A DNA stretch of 42,478 bases. Origin: Chthoniobacter flavus (lineage in GTDB: Bacteria > Verrucomicrobiota > Verrucomicrobiia > Chthoniobacterales > Terrimicrobiaceae). The notes under the pieces were generated by a model, which saw only the letters and a list, made by a program, of their open reading frames with translations, did no database searches and was not told the origin of the DNA. The DNA lies in the NCBI GenBank assembly GCA_945883435.1, contig CAMCXK010000024.1:1-42478 (forward strand), in the 5' to 3' direction. Of this stretch, positions 2,997 through 20,838 are shown one piece after another (positions within the stretch are counted from its first letter, which is position 1; every line of letters begins with the position of its first letter). A program made the position numbers and the translations under genes.

Positions 2997-4667
2997 ATGA
3001 ATTCCGACTCCGAAAACCCCACCGATCTTTCCGGACTGGAAATGGATCTTCTCAAAAGCCTTCAGCCATCTTGGGTGAAAGACGACCCGTCCTCGGTCCC
3101 GGATCTGCGCCATTTTTCGGACGACCGGAGGGACGAACGGGAGGGGGGGCGCGGGAGGGATGGTTTTTCCTCTCCCCGCCGGTCCGCCAAGCCCCGCGGA
3201 GATCGTGCCGAGGGCCGTTCCCAACGCGGGGACCGTCGGGAACCAGCGCGCCAAGGGGAACGCCGCGGTGCGCCGCGCGATCGTCGTGACGGTCCGCCGC
3301 GCAGGGACGGGGGAGGCCCCCGGGAGCGGGAACCGCGCGAAGAGCGGTTGCCGATGCTGGCGGGCTGGGAGGTGAAATTCGTTCCTGAACCTCGTGGAGT
3401 CGAAGGCTTGTTGAAGCAGATCAAATCCTCGGCCAAAGCCTATGGTCTTTTTGATTTGGCCCGTCTGGTTCTTGAGAAATCACCACGTTACTCGGTTTCC
3501 TTCGAGCACAAGGACGGTCCGGCTTTGTTCCAGTGTGTCGAGGACGGCACGCTCTGGCTTTCGCAACGCGACGCGGTGGCCCATGTCCTGGCCAGCCATC
3601 TGGATCGTTTTTATTCCACCGAGAAGATCACTGTGGAAGCGCCCAAAGGCATCTATCCCGTCATTGCGCAATGTGGCATGAGCGGGGTCTTTCTGGGACC
3701 TCCGAACCACCACGACTACCAGCTGCAACTGCGGAAAGTCCATGCCGAGCGTTTTGCCAATGTTCCCTTCGATATTTACAAAGCCCGGATCCGCATGCTG
3801 CGGGACGAGGAGTCGATCCAGAAGTGGAAGGAGCAACAAACCAGCCGGCTTGTCTACCGTCCCTTGCCCGCTTTGGCGCCTGAGCCCGGGGCCCAGGCCT
3901 CGCCGGTCGATGCGGCGGCGTCCGCCGAAACCCCGGCTTCTCCGGAGGTTGCGGCCCATGATCCAGTCACCGCTCCGGTCGAGGTCCCGCCTGATCTGCC
4001 GGAGGAGGGGGGCGGTGAACCGGTCGCTGCCTTGCCGCATCTGAAGGATCTTGCCGAGGTCGAAACCCACTTCATGGCTCACCACGCCTCGGAAGCGGTG
4101 ATTCCGGCTCCCGGGAATTTCACGGTGTCCGGGCCTGCGGCGGTGAACGACTCCGCTCCGGCCGTGCTGGTTTTTGTGCGTCAGGAATTGGACCGCTTGA
4201 TCCGCTTTCCGCTGCCGATCACGCATGGCATGAGCCAGCAGTTCGTCGCCGGGGGGCTTCAAATTTTCAAGGCGCACGACAATGTGACCTACGTGTCGGT
4301 GGCCCGGCCCAAGGCGCTCGACCGCCAGGCCACGCCGGTTTCGGAGAGTCTGGCCGCCATTTTGGATTATCTCGAGTCGCACGCGGGCCAGAGCCGGGCG
4401 GATCAGTGGAAGGGTTTGCTCTCGCTTCCCACCCTGCCGGCGGAGGAGTCCCTCAAGGAGCCGGCATTGTTGCGCGATTTTCACTGGCTCCTGTTGCAAG
4501 GCCATGTGGTGGATTACGCCACCAAGGGTCTGGAGCTTCCGAAACGCGGCACTCCCCGCCCTGTCAAGGAGACGCCCAGCGCCATTTCCTCACCCGCCTC
4601 CACATCGCGGGGTGGGGAGGCGGGTTTGGGAGACGCGGACACGCCTGAGCCCGTCCACGGGAATTAG
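2997..4667 (+). CDS. Hypothetical protein with disordered Arg/Gly-rich N-terminus
   Basis: 556 aa from the ATG at 2997. Residues 40-115 are an Arg/Gly/Asp-rich low-complexity stretch of the kind often seen in RNA-associated proteins. Residues 120-290 look folded (start LAGWEVKFVPEPRGVEGLL). A Pro/Ala/Glu-rich linker follows at about 295-370, then a second folded region to about 520 with an acidic to basic tail. There is no signal peptide and no membrane segment. I do not recognise a named domain. It begins 89 bp after prfA on the same strand and its stop overlaps the end of the convergent truncated thrS by 4 bp. A 10-bp inverted repeat (4592-4601 with 4616-4625) lies inside the last codons. 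Confidence 0.75.
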   Translation: MNSDSENPTDLSGLEMDLLKSLQPSWVKDDPSSVPDLRHFSDDRRDEREGGRGRDGFSSPRRSAKPRGDRAEGRSQRGDRREPARQGERRGAPRDRRDGPPRRDGGGPREREPREERLPMLAGWEVKFVPEPRGVEGLLKQIKSSAKAYGLFDLARLVLEKSPRYSVSFEHKDGPALFQCVEDGTLWLSQRDAVAHVLASHLDRFYSTEKITVEAPKGIYPVIAQCGMSGVFLGPPNHHDYQLQLRKVHAERFANVPFDIYKARIRMLRDEESIQKWKEQQTSRLVYRPLPALAPEPGAQASPVDAAASAETPASPEVAAHDPVTAPVEVPPDLPEEGGGEPVAALPHLKDLAEVETHFMAHHASEAVIPAPGNFTVSGPAAVNDSAPAVLVFVRQELDRLIRFPLPITHGMSQQFVAGGLQIFKAHDNVTYVSVARPKALDRQATPVSESLAAILDYLESHAGQSRADQWKGLLSLPTLPAEESLKEPALLRDFHWLLLQGHVVDYATKGLELPKRGTPRPVKETPSAISSPASTSRGGEAGLGDADTPEPVHGN

Positions 4668-5794: not shown

Positions 5795-6982
5795 TCAATA
5801 TTTCGGAACGGCGGGATCGATGCGATCGGACCAGGCGAGAATGCCGCCGGCGACGTTCAGAAGCTTTGAAAAGCCGGCTTTTTGCAGATGCCGCACTGCC
5901 GTGGCGCTGCGCCCTCCGACTTTGCAATGGATCACGATTTCGTCGGCGCTGTCGAGTTCGCTCATGCGCGAGGGAAGTTCCCCGAGCGGGAGGAGTTTGG
6001 CACCGGGGATGCGGGCGATGTCCCATTCATAAGGTTCCCGCACATCGAGCAGCACGAATTTCTCACCCCGGTCGAGGCGGCCCTTCAGATCCTCCACGGT
6101 GATTTCAGGCACGGGTTGCTCGGCCTCCTCCTCCGCGCGCGCTTGGGGAATGCCGCAGAACACCTCGTAGTCGATCAACTCGGTGATCGTGGGGTTGGCG
6201 GAGCACACCGGGCAGGCCGGATCCTTGCGCACCTTGAATTCGCGGAATTTCATTTTAAGCGCGTCGAAGTGCACCAGCCGGCCGATCAGCGGCTCGCCGA
6301 TTCCCACGATCAGCTTGATGGCTTCGATCGCCTGCATCACTCCGATCACGCCGGGCAGAACCCCCAGCACACCGCCTTCCGCGCAGCTGGGCACCATTCC
6401 CGGTGGCGGCGGTTCGGGATAAAGACACCGGTAACATGGTCCTCCAAGCACCGGCGCGAACACCGTGCACTGGCCGTCGAATCGAAAAATCGAGCCATAC
6501 ACATTCGGCTTCTTGAGGAACACGCACACATCGTTTGAGAGGTAGCGCGTCGGGAAATTGTCGGTGCCGTCGATCACGAGATCGTAGGGCGCCACGAGTT
6601 CCATGGCGTTGTCCGCCTGAAAGAGCGCGTCGTGCAGAACCACTTGGACATTCGGGTTCACCTCCTTGATGCGGTCACGCGCGCTGTTCAGCTTTTTGCG
6701 GCCGACGTCCTTCGTGCCGTGCAAAATTTGGCGCTGCAGATTCGAGTAGTCCACCACATCGAAATCCACCAGTCCCAGCGTGCCCACACCCGCTGCCGCC
6801 AAATAAAGGGCGATCGGTGAACCGAGTCCCCCGGTGCCGATACAGAGCACCTTCGCAGCCTTCAAGCGTTTCTGGCCCTCCATCGTGACCTCGGGCATGA
6901 TCAGGTGGCGCGAGTAGCGGGCGATTTCGTCATTGGAAAACTCCACTTCCGAATAGCGGGATGGATCAAGAATGCTCGTCAT
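5795..6982 (-). CDS. moeB: MoeB/ThiF-type adenylyltransferase with C-terminal rhodanese domain
   Basis: 395 aa from the ATG at 6982, the normal length for the MoeZ/MoeBR type. Residues 15-265 form the E1-like fold: nucleotide loop GTGGLG (49-54), DGTDNFPTRY, the zinc pairs CYRC and CPVC, and a Cys before the crossover loop (SCAEGG). Residues 285-395 form a rhodanese domain with active-site loop HCKVGGRSA (Cys 353). Such proteins adenylate the C-terminal Gly of small sulfur carriers (MoaD, ThiS and relatives) and load them with sulfur for molybdopterin, thiamine or cysteine synthesis. The partner carrier is not in the window, so the exact pathway is open. The frame stays open upstream to 7363, but MTSILDPSRYSEVEFSNDE is the family-typical start. 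First gene of the moeB-trm112-thrS operon. Confidence 0.9.
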   Translation of the reverse strand: MTSILDPSRYSEVEFSNDEIARYSRHLIMPEVTMEGQKRLKAAKVLCIGTGGLGSPIALYLAAAGVGTLGLVDFDVVDYSNLQRQILHGTKDVGRKKLNSARDRIKEVNPNVQVVLHDALFQADNAMELVAPYDLVIDGTDNFPTRYLSNDVCVFLKKPNVYGSIFRFDGQCTVFAPVLGGPCYRCLYPEPPPPGMVPSCAEGGVLGVLPGVIGVMQAIEAIKLIVGIGEPLIGRLVHFDALKMKFREFKVRKDPACPVCSANPTITELIDYEVFCGIPQARAEEEAEQPVPEITVEDLKGRLDRGEKFVLLDVREPYEWDIARIPGAKLLPLGELPSRMSELDSADEIVIHCKVGGRSATAVRHLQKAGFSKLLNVAGGILAWSDRIDPAVPKY

Positions 6983-7854: not shown

Positions 7855-8082
7855 GTGAGCCGCACTCGCATCGATCCTCTCCAAAAATCCACCGCCGCCG
7901 GCATTTCACTGCCTCCCGAACTGATCGCCGATGCCAAACGGCATGCCCGCGACCAAGGTCTGACGCTGTCCGGATACGTGCGCCTCCTCCTCCTCCGCGA
8001 AATCAAGGCGTTTCGGAATCATCCCTCGTCGCCCACCCAATCGCCATCACTGCAAAAAACAAACAATCCTGAAGATTTATGA
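7855..8082 (+). CDS. Small ribbon-helix-helix-type protein, coupled to terC
   Basis: About 75 aa from the GTG at 7855, which has an AAGAGA ribosome-binding-like site 8 nt upstream; a GTG at 7849 and a TTG at 7837 are in-frame alternatives. The core (AGISLPPELIADAKRHARDQ, then LSGYVRLLLLREIK) has the RHH strand-helix-helix pattern and matches the divergent neighbour. The last 20 residues are polar and likely flexible. Its TGA overlaps the terC ATG (ATGA), so it is translationally coupled to the ter block and is the best local candidate for its regulator. Composition changes from GC-rich to AT-rich right at this overlap. Confidence 0.65.
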   Translation: MSRTRIDPLQKSTAAGISLPPELIADAKRHARDQGLTLSGYVRLLLLREIKAFRNHPSSPTQSPSLQKTNNPEDL

Positions 8083-9062
8083 CACCCACAGCTGACCTCA
8101 CGCTACCTAGTATGGTGATGAGTAAAATCGAACTCACCGACATTTTGGCCTTTGCGATTCCGTTCATCCTCGCAATTTTTATTGACCTCGGCATGCATCG
8201 AAAAGGCAAGACGGTTTCTATGGCGGATGCGGCCATGTGGTCTCTGATCTGGCTGATTTGTGCTGGTTGTTTCGGATTCTACATTTTCCTGCATTCAGGC
8301 GTCACCGCCGCAAGCCTCTATGCTCAAGGTTATATCTTGGAAAAGGCACTTGCTGTTGACAATTTATTTGCTTTTTATCTGATATTTAAATCTTTTGGCC
8401 TGACAGTCCCTGCAAACCAACACTTGCAACACCGTATTCTTTACTGGGGAATTTTGGGGGCTATTCTTTTCAGAGTATTCTTTTTGGGAATTGGTGCACT
8501 TATTGTCAATCTGAGTCCTTATGTGTTAATAGGATTTGCGTTGGTGGTTCTCTGGACTGTCAAAAAAATGTGGTCGAGCAGTGACGATGATGAAGAAGTC
8601 GACTACACCCAGCACTGGTCGGTTAATTTTGTCAAAAAATTTAGCAGAGTAAATCCATCTATCGAAAAGCACCGGTTTTTTGATAACGGAGTAACACCGC
8701 TATTCCTTTGCTTGGTTTGTATTGAGGTCTGTGATGTTATTTTTGCATTCGACTCGATGCCAGTGATTATTGCAGTCGTAAGAGACCCTTATCTCATGAT
8801 TACCTCCAGCTTATGGGCTGCCGCTGGGCTGAGAAGTCTATATTTCCTTTTGGTGGCGGCTCAGCAGCAATTCTGGGCACTCGATAAAGCGGTAATGATA
8901 CTGCTTGTTTTCATTTCTTTTAAGTTGATCGGCAGCGCTTTTGGATACCATCTCCCACATACCATGAGCCTATCCATTGTTGGTGTTATTCTTGCGTCAG
9001 GAATTATTTGGTCTCTCGCTCGACCACAGGCTCCTGATGTCGATCAAGATTCCGCAACATAA
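8079..9062 (+). CDS. terC: TerC-family integral membrane protein
   Basis: 327 aa with about eight or nine hydrophobic helices. Both TerC signatures are present: EKALAVDNLFAFYLIF near residues 87-102 and FAFDSMPVIIAVVRDP near 223-238, each carrying the membrane-embedded Asp proposed to handle metal ions. An acidic loop (SSSDDDEEVDY, about 168-178) faces one side. TerC proteins are inner-membrane parts of tellurite-resistance/stress systems; some relatives export manganese or affect metal loading of exoproteins. It leads a plus-strand run in which genes are mostly separated by a few bases. The internal ATG before SKIELTD (near 8112) is an alternative start, but the ATGA overlap with the RHH gene favours 8079. 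Confidence 0.92.
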   Translation: MTPTADLTLPSMVMSKIELTDILAFAIPFILAIFIDLGMHRKGKTVSMADAAMWSLIWLICAGCFGFYIFLHSGVTAASLYAQGYILEKALAVDNLFAFYLIFKSFGLTVPANQHLQHRILYWGILGAILFRVFFLGIGALIVNLSPYVLIGFALVVLWTVKKMWSSSDDDEEVDYTQHWSVNFVKKFSRVNPSIEKHRFFDNGVTPLFLCLVCIEVCDVIFAFDSMPVIIAVVRDPYLMITSSLWAAAGLRSLYFLLVAAQQQFWALDKAVMILLVFISFKLIGSAFGYHLPHTMSLSIVGVILASGIIWSLARPQAPDVDQDSAT

Positions 9063-9071
9063 ACCCGCAAT

Positions 9072-9740
9072 ATGGCTATTAATCTATCCAAAGGACAAAG
9101 AATCGACTTGCGCAAAGCTAGCGGTGCATCACTGATCGAATTTTGCGTCGGAGTGAATTGGGGAGCTATCGAAGCAAAAGGTGGTTTTTTGGGGCTTGGC
9201 AAAAAAGTAACCGATGTGGATTTGGATCTAAGTGCGGTGTTGCTCAATACGGATGGCCAACTTTGCGACCACATCTACTCCCCGCTATATAAACAGGACT
9301 TGCTTGATAAATGCGGTTTGCCACCTGGAAAACTCACTGCGGCCAATGGGGCCCTGAAGCATACCGGGGATGATCGCGCCGGTGATTCAGGCGGAGACGA
9401 TGGACTTGATAACGAAGTGATTACTGTGAATCTGGCTCTGGTGCCGGGGAATGTCGGCCAAATCTTCTTCTTTTTAAATAACTGCGGAAAGGAAGACTTT
9501 TCGCAGATTCCCTATGCGAAAATTCGCATGTTTGAAGGCTCTCCGACTAAAGTAAAGGAAGTCTTCGCTTCCTACAATGTTTCTGCGGAAAGCCAGTATG
9601 CCGGGCGGCGGGCAATGATCCTTGGACGCCTTTATCGTCGCGGAGACGAGTGGAAATTCGCGGCGATCGGCGATCCAACCGATGATGTTTTCGTAGGGCA
9701 GACAGTTCTACGAATCGCACAAAACTACAACAAGATATAA
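9072..9740 (+). CDS. TerD-family calcium-binding protein, long divergent (TerZ-like) form
   Basis: 222 aa. It starts with the family sequence MAINLSKGQRIDL and has the acidic calcium-binding stretch (HTGDDRAGDSGGDDG, near residues 96-110) followed by the beta-strand pattern of the TerD fold. Compared with the two shorter paralogues downstream it carries a roughly 30-residue insert (GFLGLGKKV and LLDKCGLPPGKL regions). It ends in the shared GRLYRRGDEWKFAAIGD motif. TerD-type proteins bind calcium and are cytoplasmic partners of TerC in stress or tellurite resistance. Spacing to terC is 9 bp. No clear Shine-Dalgarno sequence is seen, as for the other TerD genes here. Confidence 0.9.
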   Translation: MAINLSKGQRIDLRKASGASLIEFCVGVNWGAIEAKGGFLGLGKKVTDVDLDLSAVLLNTDGQLCDHIYSPLYKQDLLDKCGLPPGKLTAANGALKHTGDDRAGDSGGDDGLDNEVITVNLALVPGNVGQIFFFLNNCGKEDFSQIPYAKIRMFEGSPTKVKEVFASYNVSAESQYAGRRAMILGRLYRRGDEWKFAAIGDPTDDVFVGQTVLRIAQNYNKI

Positions 9741-9745
9741 AACTT

Positions 9746-10300
9746 ATGGCTATTAACCTGACAAAAGGACAACGCATTGATGTGGGCCTCCAGCAAGCCG
9801 GTATCGGCTTGGGGTGGAATCCCAATGAGGGAGCTTCATCGGAGGCTTACGATCTAGACGCCAGCGCGTTCATGCTGGGAGACAACGGGAAGCTCATTTC
9901 CGGCGAATTCTTTGTTTTCTACAACCAACCACAATCGCCTGATGGCGCCGTCAAAACCAGCGGTGATAATCGGGACGGCGAGGGCGACGGAGATGACGAG
10001 AATCTATTTGTCAATTTGGGATCCGTGGACCAACGCGTGAAAGAAATCATCTTCGTCGTTACGATTCACGATGCTGAACAACGCCGCCAGAACTTTGGGC
10101 AAGTCCGCCAAGCGTTTATTAGAATCTATAACCAAGCGAACAACGAGGAGATTTGCAAATACGAGCTGGATGAAGATTTCTCCACAGAGACGGCCGTGGA
10201 ATTTGGTCGCCTCTATCGGCGCGAGGGCGCTTGGAAATTCGAAGCCATTGGCCGCGGTTTTAATGGTGGGCTGCAAACTTTAGTGGAAAAGTATTCTTAA
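9746..10300 (+). CDS. terD: TerD-family calcium-binding protein
   Basis: 184 aa, close to the standard TerD/TerE length of about 190. It opens MAINLTKGQRIDVGLQQAG, has the first acidic site (YDLDASAFML) and the second (TSGDNRDGEGDGDDEN, near 71-86), and ends with the domain's FEERRQNFGQ-like and KYELDEDFS segments. All acidic residues expected for calcium binding are present. It is most similar to the gene at 10575. It starts 5 bp after its longer paralogue, so co-translation in one complex is likely. Confidence 0.93.
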   Translation: MAINLTKGQRIDVGLQQAGIGLGWNPNEGASSEAYDLDASAFMLGDNGKLISGEFFVFYNQPQSPDGAVKTSGDNRDGEGDGDDENLFVNLGSVDQRVKEIIFVVTIHDAEQRRQNFGQVRQAFIRIYNQANNEEICKYELDEDFSTETAVEFGRLYRREGAWKFEAIGRGFNGGLQTLVEKYS

Positions 10301-10311
10301 GTAAATCCCCC

Positions 10312-10563
10312 ATGACAAAGTGTCGTTATTGCGGCTCCACTTCTTTCGGTTCCGGATGTGCTTACGGACCACGCCGTGTCCATGAACATGAGGGTGATGG
10401 CTCCAAATGCGTTTGGTGCGGATCAACATCATATGGCTCAGGGTGCGCTTATTCCGAAGATCGCAAGCATCGGCATGGACACGGCAGAGGTTGTGTATGG
10501 TGTGGATCAAGCTCCCGAGGGAGCGGTTGTGCCTACAGCCCTGATAGGGTTCATGTTCATTAA
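10312..10563 (+). CDS. Small triple Cys3-His2 repeat protein
   Basis: 83 aa made almost wholly of three 23-residue units: residues 4-26, 33-55 and 61-83. Each unit reads C-x2-C-G-S-[ST]-S-x-G-S-G-C-A-Y-x3-R-x-H-x-H. Linkers are 6 and 5 residues, and the protein ends exactly at the last His. Each unit has three Cys and two His, enough for one zinc or other soft-metal ion, or for direct tellurite/thiol chemistry. I do not recognise it as a named family. It lies between two TerD genes with 11-bp gaps on both sides, which argues for a shared role. The frame, spacing and regular repeat make a random ORF very unlikely. Confidence 0.85.
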   Translation: MTKCRYCGSTSFGSGCAYGPRRVHEHEGDGSKCVWCGSTSYGSGCAYSEDRKHRHGHGRGCVWCGSSSRGSGCAYSPDRVHVH

Positions 10564-10574
10564 AGTTATAGACC

Positions 10575-11186
10575 ATGGCAATTAATTTAACAAAAGGGCA
10601 AAGGATCGATATCGGCCTTCAAAAAATTGCTGTCGGCCTTGGGTGGGATCCCAATAAAGCCAATCCGGATGTTGAGTTTGACCTTGATGCTTCGGCATTT
10701 ATGATTGATGCATCAGGTCGGATTCCTAGCGAGGGATTTTTTGTATTTTACCAAAGCGAGACCAGAATTCCTCCTGGAAGCCAATGGCCAGATGGAATCC
10801 CAGTTTCCCCCGATGGGGCAGTTAAATCTTCTGGCGATGATCGCACCGGCGGAAGTTCCGACGGTGATGATGAAACATTAAGTATTGATCTAAGTAAGAT
10901 CGATTCACGCATTGAGCAAATTATCATCGCAGTTACAATATACGAGTTTGAGGAGCGCCGACAAAACTTTGGCCAAGTTCGAAACTCGTTTGTCAGAATA
11001 TACGATGAGCTTACAAATGAAGAGATTTGTAAATACGAATTGGACGAAGATTTCTCCGTGGAAACTGCTGTTGAATTTGGTCGTCTCTATAAACGCAATG
11101 GAGCATGGCGTTTTGAGGCAATTGGAAACGGGACATCCGGAGGGCTTTCAACTTTTGTAAAAAAATATGCTTCAGATTACTCTTAA
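10575..11186 (+). CDS. terD: TerD-family calcium-binding protein
   Basis: 203 aa. It begins MAINLTKGQRIDIGLQKIAV and contains FDLDASAFMI and the acidic site SSGDDRTGGSSDGDDET (near 90-106). It ends like the 9746 paralogue (shared ICKYELDEDFS and ETAVEFGRLY). A short extra loop rich in Pro and Gly (IPPGSQWPDGIPVS, about 65-85) accounts for the added length. Very probably a duplicate of the neighbour that has diverged, with codon choice drifting to A/T at third positions. A roughly 60-bp A-rich gap separates it from the first TerY gene, the largest gap in the first half of the block and a possible site for an internal promoter. Confidence 0.93.
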   Translation: MAINLTKGQRIDIGLQKIAVGLGWDPNKANPDVEFDLDASAFMIDASGRIPSEGFFVFYQSETRIPPGSQWPDGIPVSPDGAVKSSGDDRTGGSSDGDDETLSIDLSKIDSRIEQIIIAVTIYEFEERRQNFGQVRNSFVRIYDELTNEEICKYELDEDFSVETAVEFGRLYKRNGAWRFEAIGNGTSGGLSTFVKKYASDYS

Positions 11187-11248
11187 AATAAACCCAGTTT
11201 TTAAAGTTCAGTAAACCAACAAAAAAACAAAAAAACAAATAAATAACT

Positions 11249-11887
11249 ATGCGTCGTCTCCCAGTATACCTCGTCCTTGATACATCCGGCTCCATGTCTG
11301 GAGAGCCAATCCAGCAAGTCAAAAATGGCGTCCAAATGCTTGTCTCGGCATTGCGCCAAGACCCGCAGGCCCTTGAAACGGCTTATTTAAGCGTTATCAC
11401 CTTCGACTCTTCAGCAAGAGAAGCTGTTCCTCTGACCGATCTGCCATCTTTCCAGGCACCTGATATTAATGCAACTGGAACCACAGCAATGGGTGAGGCA
11501 CTTGCGCTTGTGGCAAATTGCGCAAAGCGCGATGTTAAAACAGCTACCGCAGGCCAGAAAGCCGACTGGCGGCCAATGGTTTTTCTCATGACGGACGGAT
11601 CTCCCACTGATGACTTCGAAAAAGGCTTGGCGCGGTTTAAATCAGAAAAATGGGGAGCAGTTGTAGCTTGTGCAGTTGACAGCGCCGATACTGGGTTATT
11701 GCAAAAAATAGCTGGAGAGGCTGTTGTGAAGTTGGATACATCGGATAGCTCGGCCCTGTCAGCATTTTTCAAATGGGTAACAGCATCCATCAGTTTCTCC
11801 AGCCAGAGTGTGCAAAAGACTGGTAAAGATGTGGAAGGATTGAATCAACTTCCCCCGCCGCCACCAGAAATCCAAGTCGTTGTTTGA
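11249..11887 (+). CDS. terY: TerY-type von Willebrand factor A protein (1)
   Basis: 212 aa, a bare vWA domain. The metal-ion-dependent adhesion site is complete: D11-T-S13-G-S15 (LDTSGSM), the Thr of GTTAMGEAL, and the Asp of LMTDGSPTDD. TerY proteins are the vWA member of the TerY/PP2C/kinase triad described for ter-type stress systems, thought to scaffold phosphorylated partners. The last 12 residues (LPPPPPEIQVVV) are the same as in the next gene even though the DNA differs at third positions. It is followed one base later by its paralogue. Confidence 0.93.
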   Translation: MRRLPVYLVLDTSGSMSGEPIQQVKNGVQMLVSALRQDPQALETAYLSVITFDSSAREAVPLTDLPSFQAPDINATGTTAMGEALALVANCAKRDVKTATAGQKADWRPMVFLMTDGSPTDDFEKGLARFKSEKWGAVVACAVDSADTGLLQKIAGEAVVKLDTSDSSALSAFFKWVTASISFSSQSVQKTGKDVEGLNQLPPPPPEIQVVV

Positions 11888-11888
11888 A

Positions 11889-12527
11889 ATGTCGCGACGA
11901 CTGCCTGTTTACATTCTTCTGGATACTTCCGGCTCGATGAGAGGGGAGCCTATTCAGGCTTTAAAGGTCGGCCTTCAATCACTTGTTTCAACTTTGAGAC
12001 AAGATCCACACGCCTTGGAGTCCGTTCACTTGAGCATCATAACCTTCGACGCCCAGGCGCGCGTTGTTTGCCCTCTTGAGAGTTTGGAGTCGTTTCAATT
12101 ACCTTCTATAGAGTGCCCCCAAAGCGGACCCACTATGACTGGAGCCGCTTTGGAGTTGCTGTGCCAGTGCGTGGACCGCGATGTGAAAAAAACTACTGGT
12201 GACCACAAAGGCGACTGGCGCCCGATAGCTTTTTTAATGACCGACGGAAGCCCCAACGATACAGCGCTATACGAACGAATGACTTCTGAAGTCAAAAAGA
12301 GACCATTCGCATCGGTTATCGCTTGTGCGGCAGGGGCAAAAGCCAAGGTGGAGCCGCTCAAAAAACTGACCTCTCAACTTTTTAATTTGGAAACCATGGA
12401 TAGCCATTCGTTTTCTGGATTGTTCCAATGGGTTTCTTCTACGGTGTCGACTGGTAACCGGAGCATGGGAGTTTCCAGCAGTATTGTTCTGCCGCCGCCG
12501 CCACCCGAAATTCAAGTCGTTGTGTAA
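11889..12527 (+). CDS. terY: TerY-type von Willebrand factor A protein (2)
   Basis: 212 aa from the ATG at 11889; a TTG at 11880 would overlap the previous stop. It is a paralogue of the preceding gene with an intact metal site (LDTSGSM, then TMTGAALEL and LMTDGSPND) and the same tail LPPPPPEIQVVV. It differs from TerY (1) mainly in surface loops. A pair of vWA proteins followed by PP2C and kinase genes reproduces the triad layout with a doubled vWA part. Pairs of vWA domains could form a dimeric metal-dependent platform; this is inference. Confidence 0.92.
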   Translation: MSRRLPVYILLDTSGSMRGEPIQALKVGLQSLVSTLRQDPHALESVHLSIITFDAQARVVCPLESLESFQLPSIECPQSGPTMTGAALELLCQCVDRDVKKTTGDHKGDWRPIAFLMTDGSPNDTALYERMTSEVKKRPFASVIACAAGAKAKVEPLKKLTSQLFNLETMDSHSFSGLFQWVSSTVSTGNRSMGVSSSIVLPPPPPEIQVVV

Positions 12528-12535
12528 ATATAGAA

Positions 12536-14317
12536 ATGATTATTAGTCAAGGATACAGAAAAATAAAAGATCCAGTTAGGTTCTTTCGGGAACTTATATC
12601 TGCATTAGAGGATCGCCATAAGGAAAAGAAACCGCATGGTCAAATTGGATTGCTCGAAAGTTGGATTTCAAAGGATGGTGAGTTTAATAAGGATCGCTTC
12701 AATCATGATGCTCTAGATGAGGATCGTATTCGTCCAGACACCTACACCTCTGATGTGGAGGTGCTATATGATTTATCGGTTCGACAAGTTACTGGAAATA
12801 AAGTTGATGCTGGAACGCCATTTTCTGCTTCGCTCTACAAGACATCAAATTGGCCTAGTGCTTTTCTAGATAAACTCGAAGAATTTTCAAAAGTCCCTTC
12901 TGAAAAACACAAAGACTTTGAAGTTAAAGATTTTCTTTTAGCACTTTCAGAGACGACTAAAGAGCAACCACCTGAAGCCGTAAATTCCGAACCAGTGGCT
13001 TCCGCAAGCGAGATCTCTGAAGGCAATGATCAAGGGCAGGCATCTAAGAAAATTGAACCGCCGAAGGAGGTTCCTAAACCCCCGATTCCCGTCCAGTTAA
13101 AAAATGGAACCGTCGGAAAACCATATGAATACGAAGCCGGTAAAATAGCTAAAGCCATCGCTAGTAAGTGCGGAGACGATCCAGAAAAAGCCTTCATTCA
13201 AAATTTAAAGTTTCCCGAAGGGAGTGGGATTGTTTTCGATGAAAATTCTGGAGCAATTTCGGGCAGTCCTACCCTTGCATTTGAGCTAGAAATTGATCTG
13301 CAATATTTCAAAGACAAATTCTCCGAGGCCCGACCTGCTAAAATTAAAGTCCTTATAAACCCTGACCCAGCATCTCTCTGGAAAGACCTCCCTACTCCTG
13401 CAGATGCTCCATATCAAAAAAAGAATACCGACCACAAATTTCTGGATGCGGGCGATTTTCAGGTCATAGCCGCCAGCCGCAGGGGTCGCTCACATGCCAA
13501 CAAAGGCGATTTTCGGGATGATGATTTCAGCACAGGCTTTTGTAAAGATACAGGTTGGGTGGTCGTAACAGTTGCCGACGGAGCAGGATCAGCAAAATAT
13601 TCAAGAAAAGGGTCCCAGCTTGCCACTGAAACCGCGCAAAGCAGGCTCTTGAATGTCTTGAGTGATTCAAAGAACTCTATCGACAAGCTAATTGATCACA
13701 ATAAAATATGGGATGCCCCAGAAGTTAAATCAGCCGTTCGAGGTCTTTTGTATGACGCCGCTCTTGCCGCTCATTACAAACTTGTTGATGAATCCAAAAG
13801 CCCTAGCGAAAAACTCGCGTCTGAGCCAATCCTTCGGAACTTCGACACCACTCTTATTCTTCTTATCCTGAAGAAAATTCCACAGGGCACTTTGCTAGCC
13901 ACTTTTTCTATCGGCGATGGAGGAGCGGGAGCAATGATCTCTCCAGAAGCAGGTCTGCCTTTGACGCAGCAAGACAGTGGCGAACATGCCGGCCAAACAG
14001 TTTTTCTTACTTTCCCATCCACCTTGCGGCAAGAAGAGTCAAATCTCGCCCAGAGGTTTCACATGGTCTGCCTGCCCGAATTTGTTGGAGCTGTTGCGAT
14101 GACAGATGGCATTACCGATCCCAAATTTCCCAGCGATGCATCATACTCAGAATCATCCCAGTGGGGAATCTTCTGGAAGGATTTGCAATCCGGCCTGGGC
14201 TCTTCGGAAAACCTTTTGGAATGGATGAACTTTTTCGCCCCAGGAAACCACGACGACAGAACGCTCGTCGCTATTGTTCCAAGAAAAGCCAACGCCCCAG
14301 CTCATGAGCATCGTTAA
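12536..14317 (+). CDS. PP2C-family phosphatase with N-terminal unknown and Ig-like regions
   Basis: 593 aa. Residues 1-130 are a polar helical region I do not recognise. About 130-185 is a Glu/Pro-rich linker. About 185-280 resembles a putative Ig (He_PIG/cadherin-like) module, with NGTVGKPYEY and FDENSGAISGSP. The C-terminal 300 residues are a PP2C phosphatase with its metal-binding Asp motifs: VADGAGSA (D348), SIGDGG (D461), MTDGITD (D524) and DDRT (D573/D574). It removes phosphate from Ser/Thr in a Mn/Mg-dependent way and should oppose the next gene's kinase. There is no signal peptide, so the Ig-like part would be cytoplasmic. Its 3' end overlaps the kinase start by 14 bp. Confidence 0.88.
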   Translation: MIISQGYRKIKDPVRFFRELISALEDRHKEKKPHGQIGLLESWISKDGEFNKDRFNHDALDEDRIRPDTYTSDVEVLYDLSVRQVTGNKVDAGTPFSASLYKTSNWPSAFLDKLEEFSKVPSEKHKDFEVKDFLLALSETTKEQPPEAVNSEPVASASEISEGNDQGQASKKIEPPKEVPKPPIPVQLKNGTVGKPYEYEAGKIAKAIASKCGDDPEKAFIQNLKFPEGSGIVFDENSGAISGSPTLAFELEIDLQYFKDKFSEARPAKIKVLINPDPASLWKDLPTPADAPYQKKNTDHKFLDAGDFQVIAASRRGRSHANKGDFRDDDFSTGFCKDTGWVVVTVADGAGSAKYSRKGSQLATETAQSRLLNVLSDSKNSIDKLIDHNKIWDAPEVKSAVRGLLYDAALAAHYKLVDESKSPSEKLASEPILRNFDTTLILLILKKIPQGTLLATFSIGDGGAGAMISPEAGLPLTQQDSGEHAGQTVFLTFPSTLRQEESNLAQRFHMVCLPEFVGAVAMTDGITDPKFPSDASYSESSQWGIFWKDLQSGLGSSENLLEWMNFFAPGNHDDRTLVAIVPRKANAPAHEHR

Positions 14318-15815
14318 AGTCAAATCCCTTACAACAAGTAAGGAGTATCAATTCGATCAAAAAAAACCTGCTGGCACGGGTGCCATGAAGGAGGTGTTTT
14401 TCTCTCCAGATCGCAGTTATGTTGTCCAGATTTTCAAATCGCCTCAAGATAACAATTCGATGGAGCGATTGAAAAATATCGTTGGGAAATTTAGGGAAAA
14501 TATCTTCAATCAATCTGGAGGCGATTACTGGGAGTCTGTGTATTGTTGGCCAAATGATATTGTTACGGTTCCTGGTAGTAATCAAACAGCCCTTATTGCG
14601 CCTGTCTACAGAAAGGAGTTTTTCTTCCAGTTTGGATCAGCGAATAATGACATGCTCGGAATCAAGGGACGCGACAAACAGGGGAGATGGTTTGCTTCAG
14701 CACATCATCGAGTAAAATTTTTAGATTCACGAGAATTGGGGGATTGGAGAAGTCATCTTGGTCTATGCGTTCGTATTGCTCGAGCCGTCAAGCGAATGCA
14801 TGCCGCAGGCCTTGCCCACTCGGATTTGTCATACAGAAATGTTCTTGTCGATCCATTATCTGGCGGCGCCTCAGTAATTGATATTGATGGTTTGGTTGTT
14901 CCTCAAAGATTTCCTCCAGATGTTATTGGGACGCCAGATTTTATTGCTCCTGAGGTATTAAGAACGCTTTCACTTCCACTTACAGACAAAAAACGAGCTC
15001 TTCCTTGCATTGAAACGGACCGACATGCCTTGGCGGTTTTGATCTACATGTATCTTCTGTATAGGCACCCCTTGAGGGGGGGCAAGATACATGATTCGGA
15101 CCCTGCAAAAGATGAAGAAATGCACATGGGTGAAAAAGCTCTTTTCGTTGAGCATCATCAAGATAAAACAAATCGCCCAAATATTAGCAATCTAAGGCCA
15201 ACGGACCTGCCATTTGCTGATATTCAGAAAATCCCTCACACCTGCACAGGTCCATATCTGTCTGAGCTTTTCCAAAAAGCATTTATTGACGGCCTGCACA
15301 ACCCCAATTTGCGTCCCACTGCTAACGATTGGGAAACGGCGCTCGTAAAAACAGTCGATCTCATCCAGCCTTGTAAAAACCCAAAGTGTTCCCAGAAGTG
15401 GTATGTCTTCGACAATTCCACAAAACCCAAGTGCCCCTTTTGTGGAACACCTTATTCTGGACTATTGCCGGTCTTGAACCTCTACTCCCGGCGCCGTAAC
15501 AGCGATCCATTCAAGCCTGACAACCACCGGATCATGGTTTACACAGATCAATATCTCTATCCATGGCATGTCAACCGGCTCATTGCTCCCAATGAGCGTT
15601 TGACCCCGGAGCAGAAAAAGCCCGTAGGTTACTTCGTCCAACACCAAGGAATCTGGTGGTTTGTCAATCAGACACTCCCATCTTTAAAGGATGTCACTAA
15701 CAAAAAAGACATCCAACTAGGGGCAAAAGTAGAGCTTGTTGATGGTCTCCAGTTACTATTGAGCCCAGAGGAAAACGGAAGGCTTGTTCAAGTTCAGATG
15801 GTGAGGGGAGAATAA
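14304..15815 (+). CDS. Serine/threonine-type protein kinase with C-terminal zinc ribbon
   Basis: 503 aa from the ATG at 14304. Residues 15-300 are a protein-kinase fold: Gly-loop region GTGAMKEV (24-31), candidate ATP-binding Lys45 (VVQIFK), catalytic loop H172-S-D174-L-S-Y-R-N179, metal site DIDG (193-196) in place of DFG, and GTPDFIAPEV. Near residue 365-390 is a four-Cys zinc ribbon (CKNPKC and CPFCGTP). The last 110 residues are a beta-rich region with no name I can give. This is the kinase of the TerY/PP2C/kinase triad; its likely substrates are the vWA or FHA-linked proteins nearby. The DIDG variant is typical of this kinase branch and not a sign of decay. Confidence 0.9.
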   Translation: MSIVKVKSLTTSKEYQFDQKKPAGTGAMKEVFFSPDRSYVVQIFKSPQDNNSMERLKNIVGKFRENIFNQSGGDYWESVYCWPNDIVTVPGSNQTALIAPVYRKEFFFQFGSANNDMLGIKGRDKQGRWFASAHHRVKFLDSRELGDWRSHLGLCVRIARAVKRMHAAGLAHSDLSYRNVLVDPLSGGASVIDIDGLVVPQRFPPDVIGTPDFIAPEVLRTLSLPLTDKKRALPCIETDRHALAVLIYMYLLYRHPLRGGKIHDSDPAKDEEMHMGEKALFVEHHQDKTNRPNISNLRPTDLPFADIQKIPHTCTGPYLSELFQKAFIDGLHNPNLRPTANDWETALVKTVDLIQPCKNPKCSQKWYVFDNSTKPKCPFCGTPYSGLLPVLNLYSRRRNSDPFKPDNHRIMVYTDQYLYPWHVNRLIAPNERLTPEQKKPVGYFVQHQGIWWFVNQTLPSLKDVTNKKDIQLGAKVELVDGLQLLLSPEENGRLVQVQMVRGE

Positions 15816-15833
15816 TTTCGCTAAGAAAGAGTC

Positions 15834-16313
15834 ATGCTTATTCTTCTTGCCAAGTATGCCGACTGGCTCATCCCTATGCTTGGCGGTGTCTTGAGTTTAT
15901 GGCTCTTGATTGCTATAATTCGCGTTTACAACAATTGTAAAAAACTGGAGATTCATTTAGATGAGCTATTAGCCAACTCTGAGTCCACAAGAATAAAGCT
16001 CAACAATGTTTACGCGGAACTTTACAAGCTGCTTGGTAAGTATTCGATCCATGAATCCGATATCCTCAAATACATCTCAGCGGGTCAATCAAATATTCAA
16101 CTATTAGCAACTCAATATCCGCAGCTTAAGGCTGATGTTATTTTTCAGAATGCAAGCAATAGCTGGTCAGCTTTGTATGCCGAGCTTCAGAATTGTATGG
16201 TAATTTATAATCAAATTGTAACTCAATACAATACATATGTTACCAATTTTCCGAGGGTTTTAGCCTGCCTTTTAATTGGAAGAAAGATAAGAAAACATGG
16301 TAAAATAATGTAA
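15834..16313 (+). CDS. LemA-family membrane-anchored protein
   Basis: 159 aa. One N-terminal membrane helix (about residues 10-30) is followed by a helical domain with the LemA pattern: LNNVYAELYKLLGKY near 60, NIQLLATQYPQLKAD near 92, and YNQIVTQYNTYVTNFP near 130. LemA proteins have an outward-facing N-terminus and cytoplasmic helical bundle. Their job is not settled, but they recur with stress and phage-shock-like gene sets. The DNA is strongly A/T-rich, more so than the genes before it. It starts 19 bp after the kinase gene. Confidence 0.88.
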   Translation: MLILLAKYADWLIPMLGGVLSLWLLIAIIRVYNNCKKLEIHLDELLANSESTRIKLNNVYAELYKLLGKYSIHESDILKYISAGQSNIQLLATQYPQLKADVIFQNASNSWSALYAELQNCMVIYNQIVTQYNTYVTNFPRVLACLLIGRKIRKHGKIM

Positions 16314-16381
16314 AACTAATTTAAATAGAAATGCCTAATTACTCTTTATATTTTTCAGAAAATTATCATTAATAAAAAACC

Positions 16382-16993
16382 ATGAGTTTCAGTAGTAAAC
16401 CACATATTTTTGGTAAAGCCAAATGGCCGGTTACTATTACGCTATCATTGATTTTAGCTTTTTCCTTGGATTCTTTCATTTCAAAATACTATTCTCAGGT
16501 TGATTTAAGGACTCAATCCGCAATCATTCGCTTTGGAATAATCTTTGTTTTGTCTTTAGGGGTTTCGATAGCATTAACTTCAGAAACTTCACTACGAGCC
16601 ATTCTCTCACTAATACCAGCTCTCGTATGTGCAGCAATTCTGGGTGTCGTCGTCTATTTCGGATTTGATGCCTTCTCGGGTCCAAATCTGAACCAGTCAA
16701 ACCAACAAACATGGACAACTATTTCTACGATAGTTGGGCTGCTGATTTCATGGTCTGGCTTTTACAATTTATTATCTCATTCTTCTTGGATTGGAAAGCC
16801 TTGTCCATCTTGCAAAACGAGAGGAAAATTAAGTTCAGGCATGTCTTCTAAAGAATATATGGGTGCAACTTATGAGAGGGACTCCCAATCAAATTTAACC
16901 AGATATAACAAATATTTAATTACATATCAGCACGATTGTTCACATTGTGACTATCAGTGGCATACAACCTCTGAAACTAAAGAGAGTCAGTAA
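16382..16993 (+). CDS. Four-helix membrane protein with zinc-ribbon tail
   Basis: 203 aa. Four hydrophobic segments lie at about 15-33, 45-65, 72-95 and 110-130. The soluble tail has two CxxC knuckles: CPSC near 140 and CSHC near 187, with a His (HDCSHCDYQW) beside the second. This should hold one zinc ion. I do not recognise the family. It lies 68 bp after the LemA gene in a very A/T-rich stretch. The zinc ribbon echoes those in the kinase and TerY-C protein, so these parts may share a partner. Confidence 0.75.
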   Translation: MSFSSKPHIFGKAKWPVTITLSLILAFSLDSFISKYYSQVDLRTQSAIIRFGIIFVLSLGVSIALTSETSLRAILSLIPALVCAAILGVVVYFGFDAFSGPNLNQSNQQTWTTISTIVGLLISWSGFYNLLSHSSWIGKPCPSCKTRGKLSSGMSSKEYMGATYERDSQSNLTRYNKYLITYQHDCSHCDYQWHTTSETKESQ

Positions 16994-17043
16994 AATGTCA
17001 CAATTGCCTCCAAGGCATGCATGAAATCTTTTACTAAACTGAA

Positions 17044-18075
17044 ATGAATCGAAGACTACCGGTTTACTTGCTTATTGATTGTTCCGAGTCGATGATCGGG
17101 GGGGGCATTGAATCTGTTCGGCAGGGCTTATCTACGATGGTTTCCAAGCTCAGGATAGACCCCCATGCTCTCGATTCTGTATTTTTGAGCGTGATTACAT
17201 TTGATTCCGCGGCTCGTGTTGCAGTTCCATTAACTGGGCTTGTTGATTTTCAAGAACCCAAACTGATTACGAAGCCGGGAACGGCTTTGGGCCAGGCACT
17301 CAAATTACTTTCACAACAAATCGAAAAAGAAGTCCAAAAGACATCGCATCAGACAAAGGGGGATTATCGCCCGTTGGTTCTTTTGTTAACAGATGGACAA
17401 CCGCTTGATGATTGGAAAGCCCCGCTCGCAAAACTCGGCAAGGATATCCGCCCGCGGCCAGCCAATATTTATGCCATTGGTTGTGGTGAGGATGTGGACT
17501 TTTCCATTCTTCAAAGTATCACGGACATCGTTTTGAGAATGGAAAACATGGGGCCGGAGTCTTTTGCAAAACTCTTTGTCTGGCTCACGGCCTCTGTCTC
17601 CAGCGCAAGCCAAGGTGTGGGCGAGTCTGTCGAGGGAAAATTCAACTTGGAAAAGCTTCCCGACAACATCGAAGAAGTGAAAGCAAAGGCCGCTCCCCTT
17701 TCCGATGGGCCACCCCGTCAAGTTTTTCTTCGAGCCAGATGCGCTACCAAAAAGTTTCCCTACTTGATGCGCTATCGATTCGATCCTGTTTTTGGATGCT
17801 ATCAGCCTACCAAATCCCACAGGCTCAGCGAAGAAGAAATGCAGGGTTCTGGTGAATTTGCCATGCCGGATATCGCATCCAACCTGCTCAATGGAGCGCC
17901 GCCTTGCCCGTGGTGTGAAACGCCTGGCGCTGGAAATTGTGGAAATTGCGGAACAATCTTTTGCGCCAGTGCGAATGACCATTCAGATGTCACATGCCCT
18001 GGTTGCGCAACAGTTCTCAAATCGGGTCCTCAAGGCGAGTCCGTTTCATTTGGCGTCCGGCAAAGCGGCGGATAA
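17044..18075 (+). CDS. TerY-C type vWA protein with C-terminal multi-Cys domain
   Basis: 343 aa. Residues 1-200 are a vWA domain with metal site D12-C-S14-E-S16, GTALGQAL and LLTDGQPLDD. The usual Gly after the first Ser is Glu here. After a linker come a roughly 60-residue region (RARCATKKFPYLMRYRFD) and a Cys-rich module with CPWC, CGNC, FC and CPGC plus a His (about 288-328). This matches the TerY-C layout, in which the vWA part is joined to a metal-binding tail. It lacks the proline tail of TerY (1) and (2). It probably joins the triad as a second, metal-responsive vWA component. Confidence 0.87.
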   Translation: MNRRLPVYLLIDCSESMIGGGIESVRQGLSTMVSKLRIDPHALDSVFLSVITFDSAARVAVPLTGLVDFQEPKLITKPGTALGQALKLLSQQIEKEVQKTSHQTKGDYRPLVLLLTDGQPLDDWKAPLAKLGKDIRPRPANIYAIGCGEDVDFSILQSITDIVLRMENMGPESFAKLFVWLTASVSSASQGVGESVEGKFNLEKLPDNIEEVKAKAAPLSDGPPRQVFLRARCATKKFPYLMRYRFDPVFGCYQPTKSHRLSEEEMQGSGEFAMPDIASNLLNGAPPCPWCETPGAGNCGNCGTIFCASANDHSDVTCPGCATVLKSGPQGESVSFGVRQSGG

Positions 18076-18093
18076 AACCCTAATACTGATAAA

Positions 18094-18741
18094 ATGAATT
18101 ATAGCCACATTTTACTCGTTTTTTTTATTTCAATTGCACTTGTTGCTTGTGAATCTGAAGTTGAGAGAAATGACCGTTTGGTCCGAGAGGCTCAACAAAA
18201 AGAAGCTGAAGCCGCTCGTAGGGAGCAAGTTCGCATAGAGACTGAAAAAAGGGCAGAAGAGGTGAGAGTGCGGCGCGAGGCTGAAGAAGAGAAAAAGCGC
18301 AGGGAAAAAGAAATTTACGATCGTTATATAAACAATTCCTTGCCAACGGGGTCCACGCCCTATTTTGATTACTATGGAGGCAACCCCACTTGCAATGGTT
18401 ATGGTTGTTCAGAGATTGTAGTGAGGACGAGCAACTCCGATGTTTTAGTTACAATCAAAAGTCTAGGCAAGGTGGTTAGACACGGTTATGTAAAAGCTGG
18501 CGGTTCTTATACATTTTCCATGCCAAACGGGACTTATCAACCATTCTTCTACTATGGTAAAGGCTGGAATCCTGAGAAGGAAATGAAAAATGGCGAAATT
18601 CGAGGTGGGTTTGTAACCAAAGAGGATTTTGGCAAAGATGACCCTCAAGTTTTAAGAAACAATGTATTAACTTATGAGTTAATTCTTCAGGTCGATGGAA
18701 ATTTTAGCACCAGACCAAGCAATCCGTTAGAAGCCTTGTGA
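18094..18741 (+). CDS. Lipoprotein with coiled-coil stalk and beta-type head
   Basis: 215 aa. The N-terminus MNYSHILLVFFISIALVAC is a lipoprotein signal with Cys19 as the lipidation site (LVAC). Residues 22-80 are a highly charged Glu/Arg/Lys coiled coil. Residues 90-205 hold a compact domain rich in Tyr, Gly and beta-strands, with a Cys pair (CNGYGC, near 105) likely forming a disulfide. Such a layout suits a periplasmic or outer-membrane-linked sensor reaching across the envelope. The family is not recognised. The gene lies 18 bp after the TerY-C gene and 23 bp before the FHA protein. Confidence 0.78.
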   Translation: MNYSHILLVFFISIALVACESEVERNDRLVREAQQKEAEAARREQVRIETEKRAEEVRVRREAEEEKKRREKEIYDRYINNSLPTGSTPYFDYYGGNPTCNGYGCSEIVVRTSNSDVLVTIKSLGKVVRHGYVKAGGSYTFSMPNGTYQPFFYYGKGWNPEKEMKNGEIRGGFVTKEDFGKDDPQVLRNNVLTYELILQVDGNFSTRPSNPLEAL

Positions 18742-18764
18742 TTTTGATGCAAACCACCTGAAGA

Positions 18765-19583
18765 ATGCGAAATAACAAAAAAATCCTCTTTGCATTCTGC
18801 GGTTTTTTGTCCGGAGCAATCGGAGCCGTGGTTGCAGAGTTAATTCCAGATTTTGGTCAAAATATTCCCGGACTTGTTGGCCATGTTGCAGTTTGGTCGG
18901 CTATTCTTGCATCGTTTATTGCGATCGGGCTTACGGCAGCAGGGGAGATATACAACCGCCGACCCTTCTCTGCATCGTCATATCGCGCTTCTCTTCTTGC
19001 GGGTGCGGTGGCTGGAGCGATAGCAGGAGCAGTGGCGCAAGCCGTATTCTCCGTGAGAAGCGGTGATGACTTTTTTCACGATGTGCTTTTCCGCTCATTC
19101 TGTTGGTCGCTCATGGGAGCTGTAGTTGGTTGGCGCCTCTCTTCTTCTATTCCAAATCTTGGATCAAAAAGGGGGTTAATTGCCGGTGCAATAGGGGGTT
19201 TTGTTGGAGGACTAGGTTTTGTGGGTGTTTGTCTCATTATGCCCGAGTTGCTAGCGAGGGCAGCTGGAGTTGCTTTCTTGGGTCTCTCCTTGGGTGTAGC
19301 GGTTGTTGCCATAGAGCAAATCACCCGCGATGCCAAGTTGGAGGTCATCTGGGGTCCAAAGGAAATAACTTCCGTTAGCTTGGGTGCCAAACCAGTTCTC
19401 ATAGGCGGTGGAGATGATCATGTGTATATATTTGGTGTCCCAGAGCATGCCATTTCAGTAGAATTGATTAGTGGCAAGATTGTCTGCACTGAGAAATTGA
19501 GCGGCAAAAAGAGCGATCTCAAGGACGGAAGTCGCATCAAAGTCGGCCGCGTCGAACTTATCGTTCGGACAGCTTCTTCCTAA
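18765..19583 (+). CDS. Membrane protein with cytoplasmic FHA-like domain
   Basis: 272 aa. Residues 8-190 carry about six Gly/Ala-rich membrane helices (for example GAVAGAIAGAVAQAVF and GAIGGFVGGLGFVGV). Residues 195-272 resemble a divergent FHA domain: SLGAKPVLIGGGDDHVYI, then VPEHAISVELISG, then LKDGSRIKVGRVEL. This matches the FHA pattern of a start strand, H-A core and L-x-DG-x-x-I-x-x-G turn. The usual Arg and Ser of the phosphothreonine pocket are not obvious, so phosphopeptide binding is uncertain. Next to a kinase and a phosphatase, a membrane-bound phosphothreonine reader is the natural inference. It is followed 3 bp later by the protease gene. Confidence 0.75.
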   Translation: MRNNKKILFAFCGFLSGAIGAVVAELIPDFGQNIPGLVGHVAVWSAILASFIAIGLTAAGEIYNRRPFSASSYRASLLAGAVAGAIAGAVAQAVFSVRSGDDFFHDVLFRSFCWSLMGAVVGWRLSSSIPNLGSKRGLIAGAIGGFVGGLGFVGVCLIMPELLARAAGVAFLGLSLGVAVVAIEQITRDAKLEVIWGPKEITSVSLGAKPVLIGGGDDHVYIFGVPEHAISVELISGKIVCTEKLSGKKSDLKDGSRIKVGRVELIVRTASS

Positions 19584-19586
19584 GCA

Positions 19587-20639
19587 GTGAAAATTCTTGT
19601 CCAGAGGGGCGGTCAAACTTTCGGTCCCTACACCGAACAAATTGCCACACAGTATTTAGCCGCTGGCACCTTGCTTCCACATGACTTGGCAAGAGACGAC
19701 GCTTCTGGAGTTCTGAAATGGGTTCCACTCAAGACATTGCTTGCAAAAAATCATGGCCCTTCAAGGGTGTCTTTGAGCAGCTTGATTTCGCAAACCATTG
19801 CAAGTTTCAAATCTTTTGACCTCAATCTGATTTTTCCTTGGAAAGAGATTGCATCCCTAAGCTGGGTAAAGGACCGCAAGCTGATCTACCTTGCGGCCAT
19901 TGGTCTTGGTCCTGCAGTTGCACTTGCTGTAACTGGCGGCCAGTCTCTTTCTTATTGGGCAATTGCATTTTATTTTTCTTCACTCTGGGCTCTTTTCTTT
20001 TACTACCTATTCCGGACCAACCAGGTGGAAACTTGGCTTTGTTTAACCTGCTTCTTTGTTACGGGTGTAGTTTCAATCGCCATACTTTTAATGCTCCAGC
20101 ATTTGCCGCCATGGACTTTTCTTTACTCGATGACAGATTCAGGAAATTTTCTGGCGCGCGTTTTTGGCATGTTTTTTGGGGGCGCAATCAACGAAGAAAT
20201 TTGCAAGGCGGCAGTGATCTTTTGGTTGGTTAGGCGCCCTGGTAGCATACTGATGCCGCAGACGGTTGTTTTCTATGGTATGATTTCGGGATTGGGATTT
20301 GGGATTTATGAAGGAGTTAATTACCAGCAAACTATCAACAGGCAGCAGGGCATTGATACGGCATACTTTTTGAATATCGCACGCTTGACCTCGTTGCCTT
20401 TCCTCCACGCTGTTTGGACCGGAATCGCTGCTTATTTCATCGCATTTGCTGCTTTGGTTCCTTCTAAAAGGCACGCTCTTTGGCTAGTGGCTATCTTGAT
20501 ACCAGCAGTTCTCCATGCCACATACAATATCTGCGGTTGGAACATCCTCGGTCTCGCCAGTGGGCTTTTGAGCGTTATATTGTTAATGACATATCTTTCG
20601 AACTGCATCGCAATGCAGCAACGCCTCAAAAAGCCCTGA
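19587..20639 (+). CDS. PrsW-family membrane protease with N-terminal GYF-like domain
   Basis: 350 aa from a GTG at 19587, 3 bp after the previous stop. Residues 1-50 look like a GYF_2 module (RGGQTFGPYTEQ, then W at about 47). Residues 100-345 are a multi-helix membrane region with the PrsW set: E203-E204 (NEEICKA), FGIYEGVNY, H274 (LHAVWTG) and H310 (LHATYN). PrsW-type enzymes are membrane proteases; the Bacillus one cleaves an anti-sigma factor. GYF domains bind proline-rich peptides, and the two TerY proteins of this block end in LPPPPPEIQVVV, a possible ligand. It is the last gene of the ter block. Confidence 0.85.
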   Translation: MKILVQRGGQTFGPYTEQIATQYLAAGTLLPHDLARDDASGVLKWVPLKTLLAKNHGPSRVSLSSLISQTIASFKSFDLNLIFPWKEIASLSWVKDRKLIYLAAIGLGPAVALAVTGGQSLSYWAIAFYFSSLWALFFYYLFRTNQVETWLCLTCFFVTGVVSIAILLMLQHLPPWTFLYSMTDSGNFLARVFGMFFGGAINEEICKAAVIFWLVRRPGSILMPQTVVFYGMISGLGFGIYEGVNYQQTINRQQGIDTAYFLNIARLTSLPFLHAVWTGIAAYFIAFAALVPSKRHALWLVAILIPAVLHATYNICGWNILGLASGLLSVILLMTYLSNCIAMQQRLKKP

Positions 20640-20786
20640 ATCTTACAAGAGAAGGCATTCTTAAAACTAATAAAAAATTGGGGAATGCATTATTAATCTT
20701 CCCGGAAGACCTTCCTAATTAGTCGGCCCTGAAAAACTTTTTAACTAATTTTCTTGGAATGTAATAGGTATGATTCTTGCTGTGTT

Positions 20787-20832
20787 GGATTGCAGGCAAA
20801 ACCTGCCTGCACACTCAAAATCCCTGCAATCC
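20787..20832 (+). promoter_or_regulatory. Leader hairpin before the transposase start
   Basis: GGATTGCAGG (20787-20796) pairs with CCTGCAATCC (20823-20832), a perfect 10-bp stem with extra pairing inside (GCAGG/CCTGC). It ends 6 nt before the preferred transposase ATG at 20839. Hairpins here can hide the start from transcripts that enter from outside the element; in this case the role is inferred. Confidence 0.5.
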
Positions 20833-20838
20833 GCGTCA

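Follow-up and report, generated by a model that had tools for sequence, protein, structure and literature searches.

Small fingers of the CCCH and zinc-ribbon kinds are built as short repeated modules with a C-x2-C knuckle and four Cys/His ligands, and metallothioneins are likewise small and rich in Cys and His. Ter systems have a metal-binding domain, TerY_C (PF15616). Among the phages, small zinc proteins of the TraR/DksA type are reported to act on RNA polymerase (PMC9239242), and the gp61.1 gene adjoins the primase gene in annotated T4-like phages. Here we describe a small gene of Chthoniobacter flavus, located in a stretch of 42,478 nucleotides (the window), whose product is built from three Cys-His units. 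The protein is most likely a phage-disseminated adaptor with structural zinc, and may bind nucleic acid.

Three repeat units in a small gene

The ORF extends on the forward strand from an ATG at 10312 to a TAA ending at 10563 (10312..10563), encodes 83 amino acids and has homologues in other genomes. Three units of 23 residues each match the pattern C-x2-C-G-S-[ST]-S-x-G-S-G-C-A-Y-x3-R-x-H-x-H exactly, all on the forward strand: unit 1 at 10321..10389 (aa 4-26, CRYCGSTSFGSGCAYGPRRVHEH), unit 2 at 10408..10476 (aa 33-55, CVWCGSTSYGSGCAYSEDRKHRH) and unit 3 at 10492..10560 (aa 61-83, CVWCGSSSRGSGCAYSPDRVHVH). The linkers measure 6 residues between units 1 and 2 and 5 residues between units 2 and 3, and the His that closes unit 3 is the final residue of the protein, which contains 9 Cys and 7 His in total. 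The initial annotation had described three 23-residue units of this pattern ending at the last His, and this proved correct.

Between the units of the window protein, 16 to 17 of the 23 third codon positions differ, with 6 to 8 differences at positions 1 and 2, and 34 of the 45 codons that encode the same residue differ synonymously. Because the units are alike in protein and unlike at most synonymous sites, the repeat is under selection and not a product of chance; judged from its codons, it is old and kept by purifying selection at the protein level. At the variable positions, mean identity was 0.66 among units within one protein versus 0.49 between different units of different proteins. Units with low synonymous divergence were observed in several genomes, which points to gene conversion there, but in the window protein and in the homologue of locus L083 the synonymous sites are saturated, so that selection, and not recent conversion, keeps their units alike.

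Two other readings of this stretch were rejected. The antisense ORF at 10280-10576 (reverse strand) was discarded because both the codon pattern and the conservation follow the forward frame. PqqD-like genes were seen by eye near the small gene in two relatives (L077 and L079); a RiPP precursor was nevertheless rejected because the protein has no leader and the association with PqqD-like genes is not recurrent.

Putative zinc site and fold

Across 31 diverse units, invariance was confined to three Cys, one Gly and the first His, and it partly reflects the gathering of the set by motif-based searches. In 12 full-length proteins every one of the nine Cys was likewise invariant, as was the leading His of each unit, and the last His of unit 3 is replaced by K or R in most relatives. 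Four metal ligands at fixed spacing, as expected of a zinc finger, were present in the 31 units with one H-to-C swap: unit 3 of the L157 phage protein carries Cys in place of the ligand His with no change of spacing (CIYCGKPYQRGRRCPASPSGLC), as would be expected of a metal site. The five ligands per unit proposed in the initial annotation do occur in the window protein, but in the family only the three Cys and the first His are invariant, which argues for a four-ligand CCCH finger and against a five-ligand metalloid trap. One conventional CCCH zinc site per unit would be the simpler reading, and the ligand pattern makes it very probable that the protein binds zinc. Within each unit one zinc would be coordinated by the C-x2-C pair, by the third Cys in the G-x-G-C turn and by the first His, and this zinc would be structural, fixing a mini-fold of about 23 residues. 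AlphaFold2, run with 12 sequences, gave a compact model of the three-finger protein (mean pLDDT 89.5, pTM 0.73).

Searches in protein catalogues placed the window protein in no described family. There was no match at threshold in Pfam (best score 14.8 bits, cut-off 27) or NCBIfam (best 16.5 bits, cut-off 27), and 12 family members likewise gave nothing above cut-off. No match was obtained in PHROG, in PADLOC and anti-phage libraries, or in the PDB by either sequence or fold; Foldseek found none for the three-finger model, a result that is uninformative for so small a fold. A literature search, mainly outside subscription journals, gave no account of such a repeat. When annotated phages and plasmids were searched directly by tblastn, no match was found, the short Cys/Gly/Ser-rich queries being probably masked or too diverged. 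The earlier statement that the protein belongs to no named family was therefore borne out in Pfam, NCBIfam, PHROG, PADLOC and the PDB. A profile search, suggested at that time as a check, assigned it to no well-characterised family and did find conservation outside the window genome, so that neither outcome that was to count against the claim was observed.

The ter island

GC content is about 60% in the window and falls to about 45% across 8.0-21 kb, where the small gene lies within a low-GC ter cluster (8079..20639, forward strand). This cluster encodes TerC, three TerD, TerY-like VWA proteins, PP2C, a kinase, LemA and a PrsW-like protease. The TerY-like VWA proteins are encoded at 11249-12527 and 17044-18075 (forward strand), the latter with a TerY_C domain, and an IS transposase (DUF772 and DDE_Tnp_1; 20770-22155) is found beside the island end. 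None of 15 other genomes of the genus carries the TerD of this cluster, and the low-GC cluster is therefore an acquired island. As initially annotated, the small gene sits between two TerD genes, and Pfam identifies both flanks as TerD: the upstream one at 9746..10300 (E 9e-73), given here as context and not as a demonstrated functional partner, and the downstream one at 10575..11186 (E 6e-62). All three are co-directional on the forward strand, with an 11-nt gap on each side of the small gene. The flanking TerD genes are close paralogues, 64% identical, so the small gene may have been trapped during a local duplication or have arrived after it.

This close co-directional spacing between two TerD genes, together with the content of 9 Cys and 7 His in 83 residues, would favour a role as a Ter-system buffer for metals or metalloids, in which the units would chelate zinc or oxidised tellurium/selenium species alongside TerD; in one Klebsiella study TerC reportedly affects both zinc and tellurite resistance (PMC12054061). 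However, no Ter gene was found beside the small gene at any of 65 other bacterial and phage loci (554 kb), which gave only two weak LemA-like matches, even though the same Ter queries readily recover such genes at control loci. Four other genomes of the phylum have orthologous ter clusters, and in these the small gene is missing. The protein has no Pfam match at threshold to known Ter domains (TerD, TerB, TerY_C and others), its rigid spacing and conserved Gly, Ser and Pro are unlike metallothioneins, and the fifth ligand, the last His, is not conserved. In the absence of Ter genes at the 65 other loci, and with related clusters lacking the small gene, the neighbourhood is no evidence of Ter function; recurrent linkage to terC, terD or terY across genomes was not found, and a conserved Ter accessory role was rejected. 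The place of the gene inside the cluster looks accidental rather than functional, and a Ter buffer, the least favoured of the explanations, is quite improbable. The proposal to look for the gene beside terD in other genomes thus gave a negative answer, and of the earlier suggestion that the protein binds zinc or oxidised metalloids, a probable metal-binding repeat stands and the tie to metalloids and TerD lacks support. The case is a warning that one neighbourhood alone is a poor guide to function, as the TerD neighbourhood does not recur.

Distribution in bacteria and possible movement of the gene

With a profile of four units, the three-finger gene was identified in 15 of 387 genomes of the window's phylum, mostly encoding three-unit proteins of 82-85 aa; within one family of this phylum, 42 of 114 genomes carry it. 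A second phylum, centred on a Rhodothermales genome, gave 2 positives among 296 genomes, and the family of one of these two gave 4 among 86. No gene was found with the full-length profile in 299 genomes of Bacillota (the clostridial phylum), a search that had no positive control. Two matches from a scan of close relatives proved spurious: the one in L004 lies in an overlapping frame near yajC and that in L005 is the zinc ribbon of a TPM-type protein. Full-length homologues elsewhere show roughly 52-66% identity (tblastn E down to 3e-30), and L074 and L075 carry two-unit versions in which one unit was lost in frame. Members with a signal-like N-terminal stretch (L076:16987-17307, L102:8837-9145, L104:3983-4315, L105:9398-9730 and L107:9371-9679) are probably exported. 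In two unrelated genomes the finger genes have nearby small proteins that look alike by eye, with a possible beta-repeat (L083:3040-3258 and L009:7964-8212); this protein is a possible recurrent neighbour. The family is scattered, and common to bacteria and phages.

The gene lies at a different site in nearly every genome among loci L270-L303 and L070-L083, and the largest family of shared neighbour genes was found in 5 of 34 loci. In 402 aligned pairs of copies, DNA homology does not reach past the stop codon (median extension 0 nt, 95th percentile 10) and upstream is lost about 15 nt before the start, sharp edges that fast intergenic drift would explain in part. In L079, two paralogous stretches (6713-6967 and 13277-13522) differ by what looks like a clean insertion of about 290 nt, made up of one three-finger gene and about 20 nt on either side of it. 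Single-gene mobility is suggested by these patterns. A truncated copy with the first unit only (about 4545-4610) and a full copy (10232-10486) occur in L073 with a shared upstream flank.

Carriage without any fixed host function, as a dispensable single-gene passenger that spreads itself, would agree with the patchy occurrence, the many partial copies, the different neighbours, the loss of homology at the stop codon and roughly 15 nt before the gene, and the clean insertion-like difference in L079. Yet strong protein conservation accompanied by synonymous divergence means that the product is selected, fast intergenic drift would by itself account for some of the loss of homology at the gene borders, and no transposition signals were found, all of which makes a mere passenger improbable. 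We prefer a selected gene that would pass singly between bacteria and phages, and that would have entered the window genome with, or into, the acquired ter island without being a conserved Ter component.

Relatives in phages

T4-like phage contigs encode proteins of about 200 aa whose N-terminus consists of two finger units followed by a helical domain. This C-terminal domain is homologous to gp61.1 (phrog_2086; PHROG E 5e-12 to 7e-13), and its tblastn search (3e-7) gave matches in more than 500 phage records. Neighbours of the two-finger genes encode a UvsW-type helicase, a UvsY-like recombination mediator, a RusA-like Holliday resolvase or a homing endonuclease. The AlphaFold2 model of the two-finger protein was weak (mean pLDDT 75.7, pTM 0.40). 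Three-unit versions were located on viral-classed contigs: L121, after a phage primase gene; L122, near an ATP-dependent protease gene; L126 (252 kb) and L157 (159 kb). A second class of two-finger phage proteins, of about 180 aa and with a different helical C-terminal domain, was observed in L044, L136, L159, L164, L167, L171 and L190; the member searched in PHROG, L044, gave no match. For the gp61.1 domain, which occurs in more than 500 sequenced phages with no assigned function, relatives with zinc fingers of nucleic-acid type beside UvsY and UvsW offer a lead.

Putative function

The three units together would form a multivalent binding module whose target would be nucleic acid or a complex that handles it. 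Nucleic acid is favoured as the target by the repeated finger, the steady positive charge and the phage fusion beside recombination and replication genes. Each of the 11 sequences tested had a net charge between +3 and +7, modest even before the zinc thiolates are counted. The three fingers of a protein co-vary, with the same variable residues in all units, and in the boldest reading, given below, they would read one ligand three times. Against nucleic acid, the signal-like N-termini of several members misfit a purely intracellular role, the phage domain might just as well bind a protein, and the gp61.1 homology is limited to the C-terminal domain, a part missing from the bacterial protein. 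Nucleic-acid binding by the three-finger protein thus falls a little short of an even chance.

The main rival is a protein target: a zinc-finger adaptor derived from phages that modulates, for instance, the host polymerase, the ribosome or the replisome and does not bind nucleic acid directly. It has a precedent in the TraR/DksA-type factors of phages that are reported to act on RNA polymerase (PMC9239242), and would agree with the extra helical domain of the phage form and with the predominance of conserved Gly, Ser, Tyr and Pro over Arg and Lys. No partner gene recurs among the bacterial neighbours, however, the largest family reaching 5 of 34 loci, and we regard a protein target as possible but unlikely. 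We retain as the best explanation a CCCH-finger protein with structural zinc, forming a multivalent module for a target of nucleic-acid type, spreading singly and foreign to the Ter system; fold searches gave no structural match to set beside it, and we consider it about evenly poised. Its boldest form is rather doubtful: a new zinc mini-fold encoded by a gene that moves alone among large phages, Verrucomicrobiota-type bacteria and members of one or more further phyla, and in which two fingers arm a gp61.1-like domain beside the recombination machinery.

Comparison with known systems

In spite of the common ligands, knuckle and modular repeat, the family differs from described CCCH and zinc-ribbon fingers in the order and spacing of the ligands, C-x2-C-x(7,8)-C-x7-H, and in having both G-x-G-C and [SG]-P fixed; the three-finger protein stays below the cut-off of every Pfam zinc-finger model and also has no PDB match in sequence or fold. 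Metallothioneins share its small size and Cys/His richness, but the repeats of the three-finger protein are ordered and even, residues other than the ligands are conserved in them, its compact model is a confident one, and it matches no metallothionein family in Pfam or NCBIfam. The regular spacing and the conserved Gly, Ser and Pro argue against a thiolate cluster of the metallothionein type. TerY_C is present in the same island, but BLASTP detected no resemblance between it and the three-finger protein (best E 0.81). Two-finger phage relatives have the gp61.1 domain as their C-terminal half, whereas the annotated gp61.1 proteins of phages Ac42 and FL18 have no fingers and the window protein has no gp61.1 domain; without a PHROG match, the window protein does not belong to phrog_2086, and only its phage relatives carry the domain. 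The three-finger family is absent from the protein catalogues searched; as a family it is new, but its general kind is known, and it is not a categorically new system. It defines a group of small zinc-finger proteins, missed by the annotation libraries tested, that bacteria and phages have in common.
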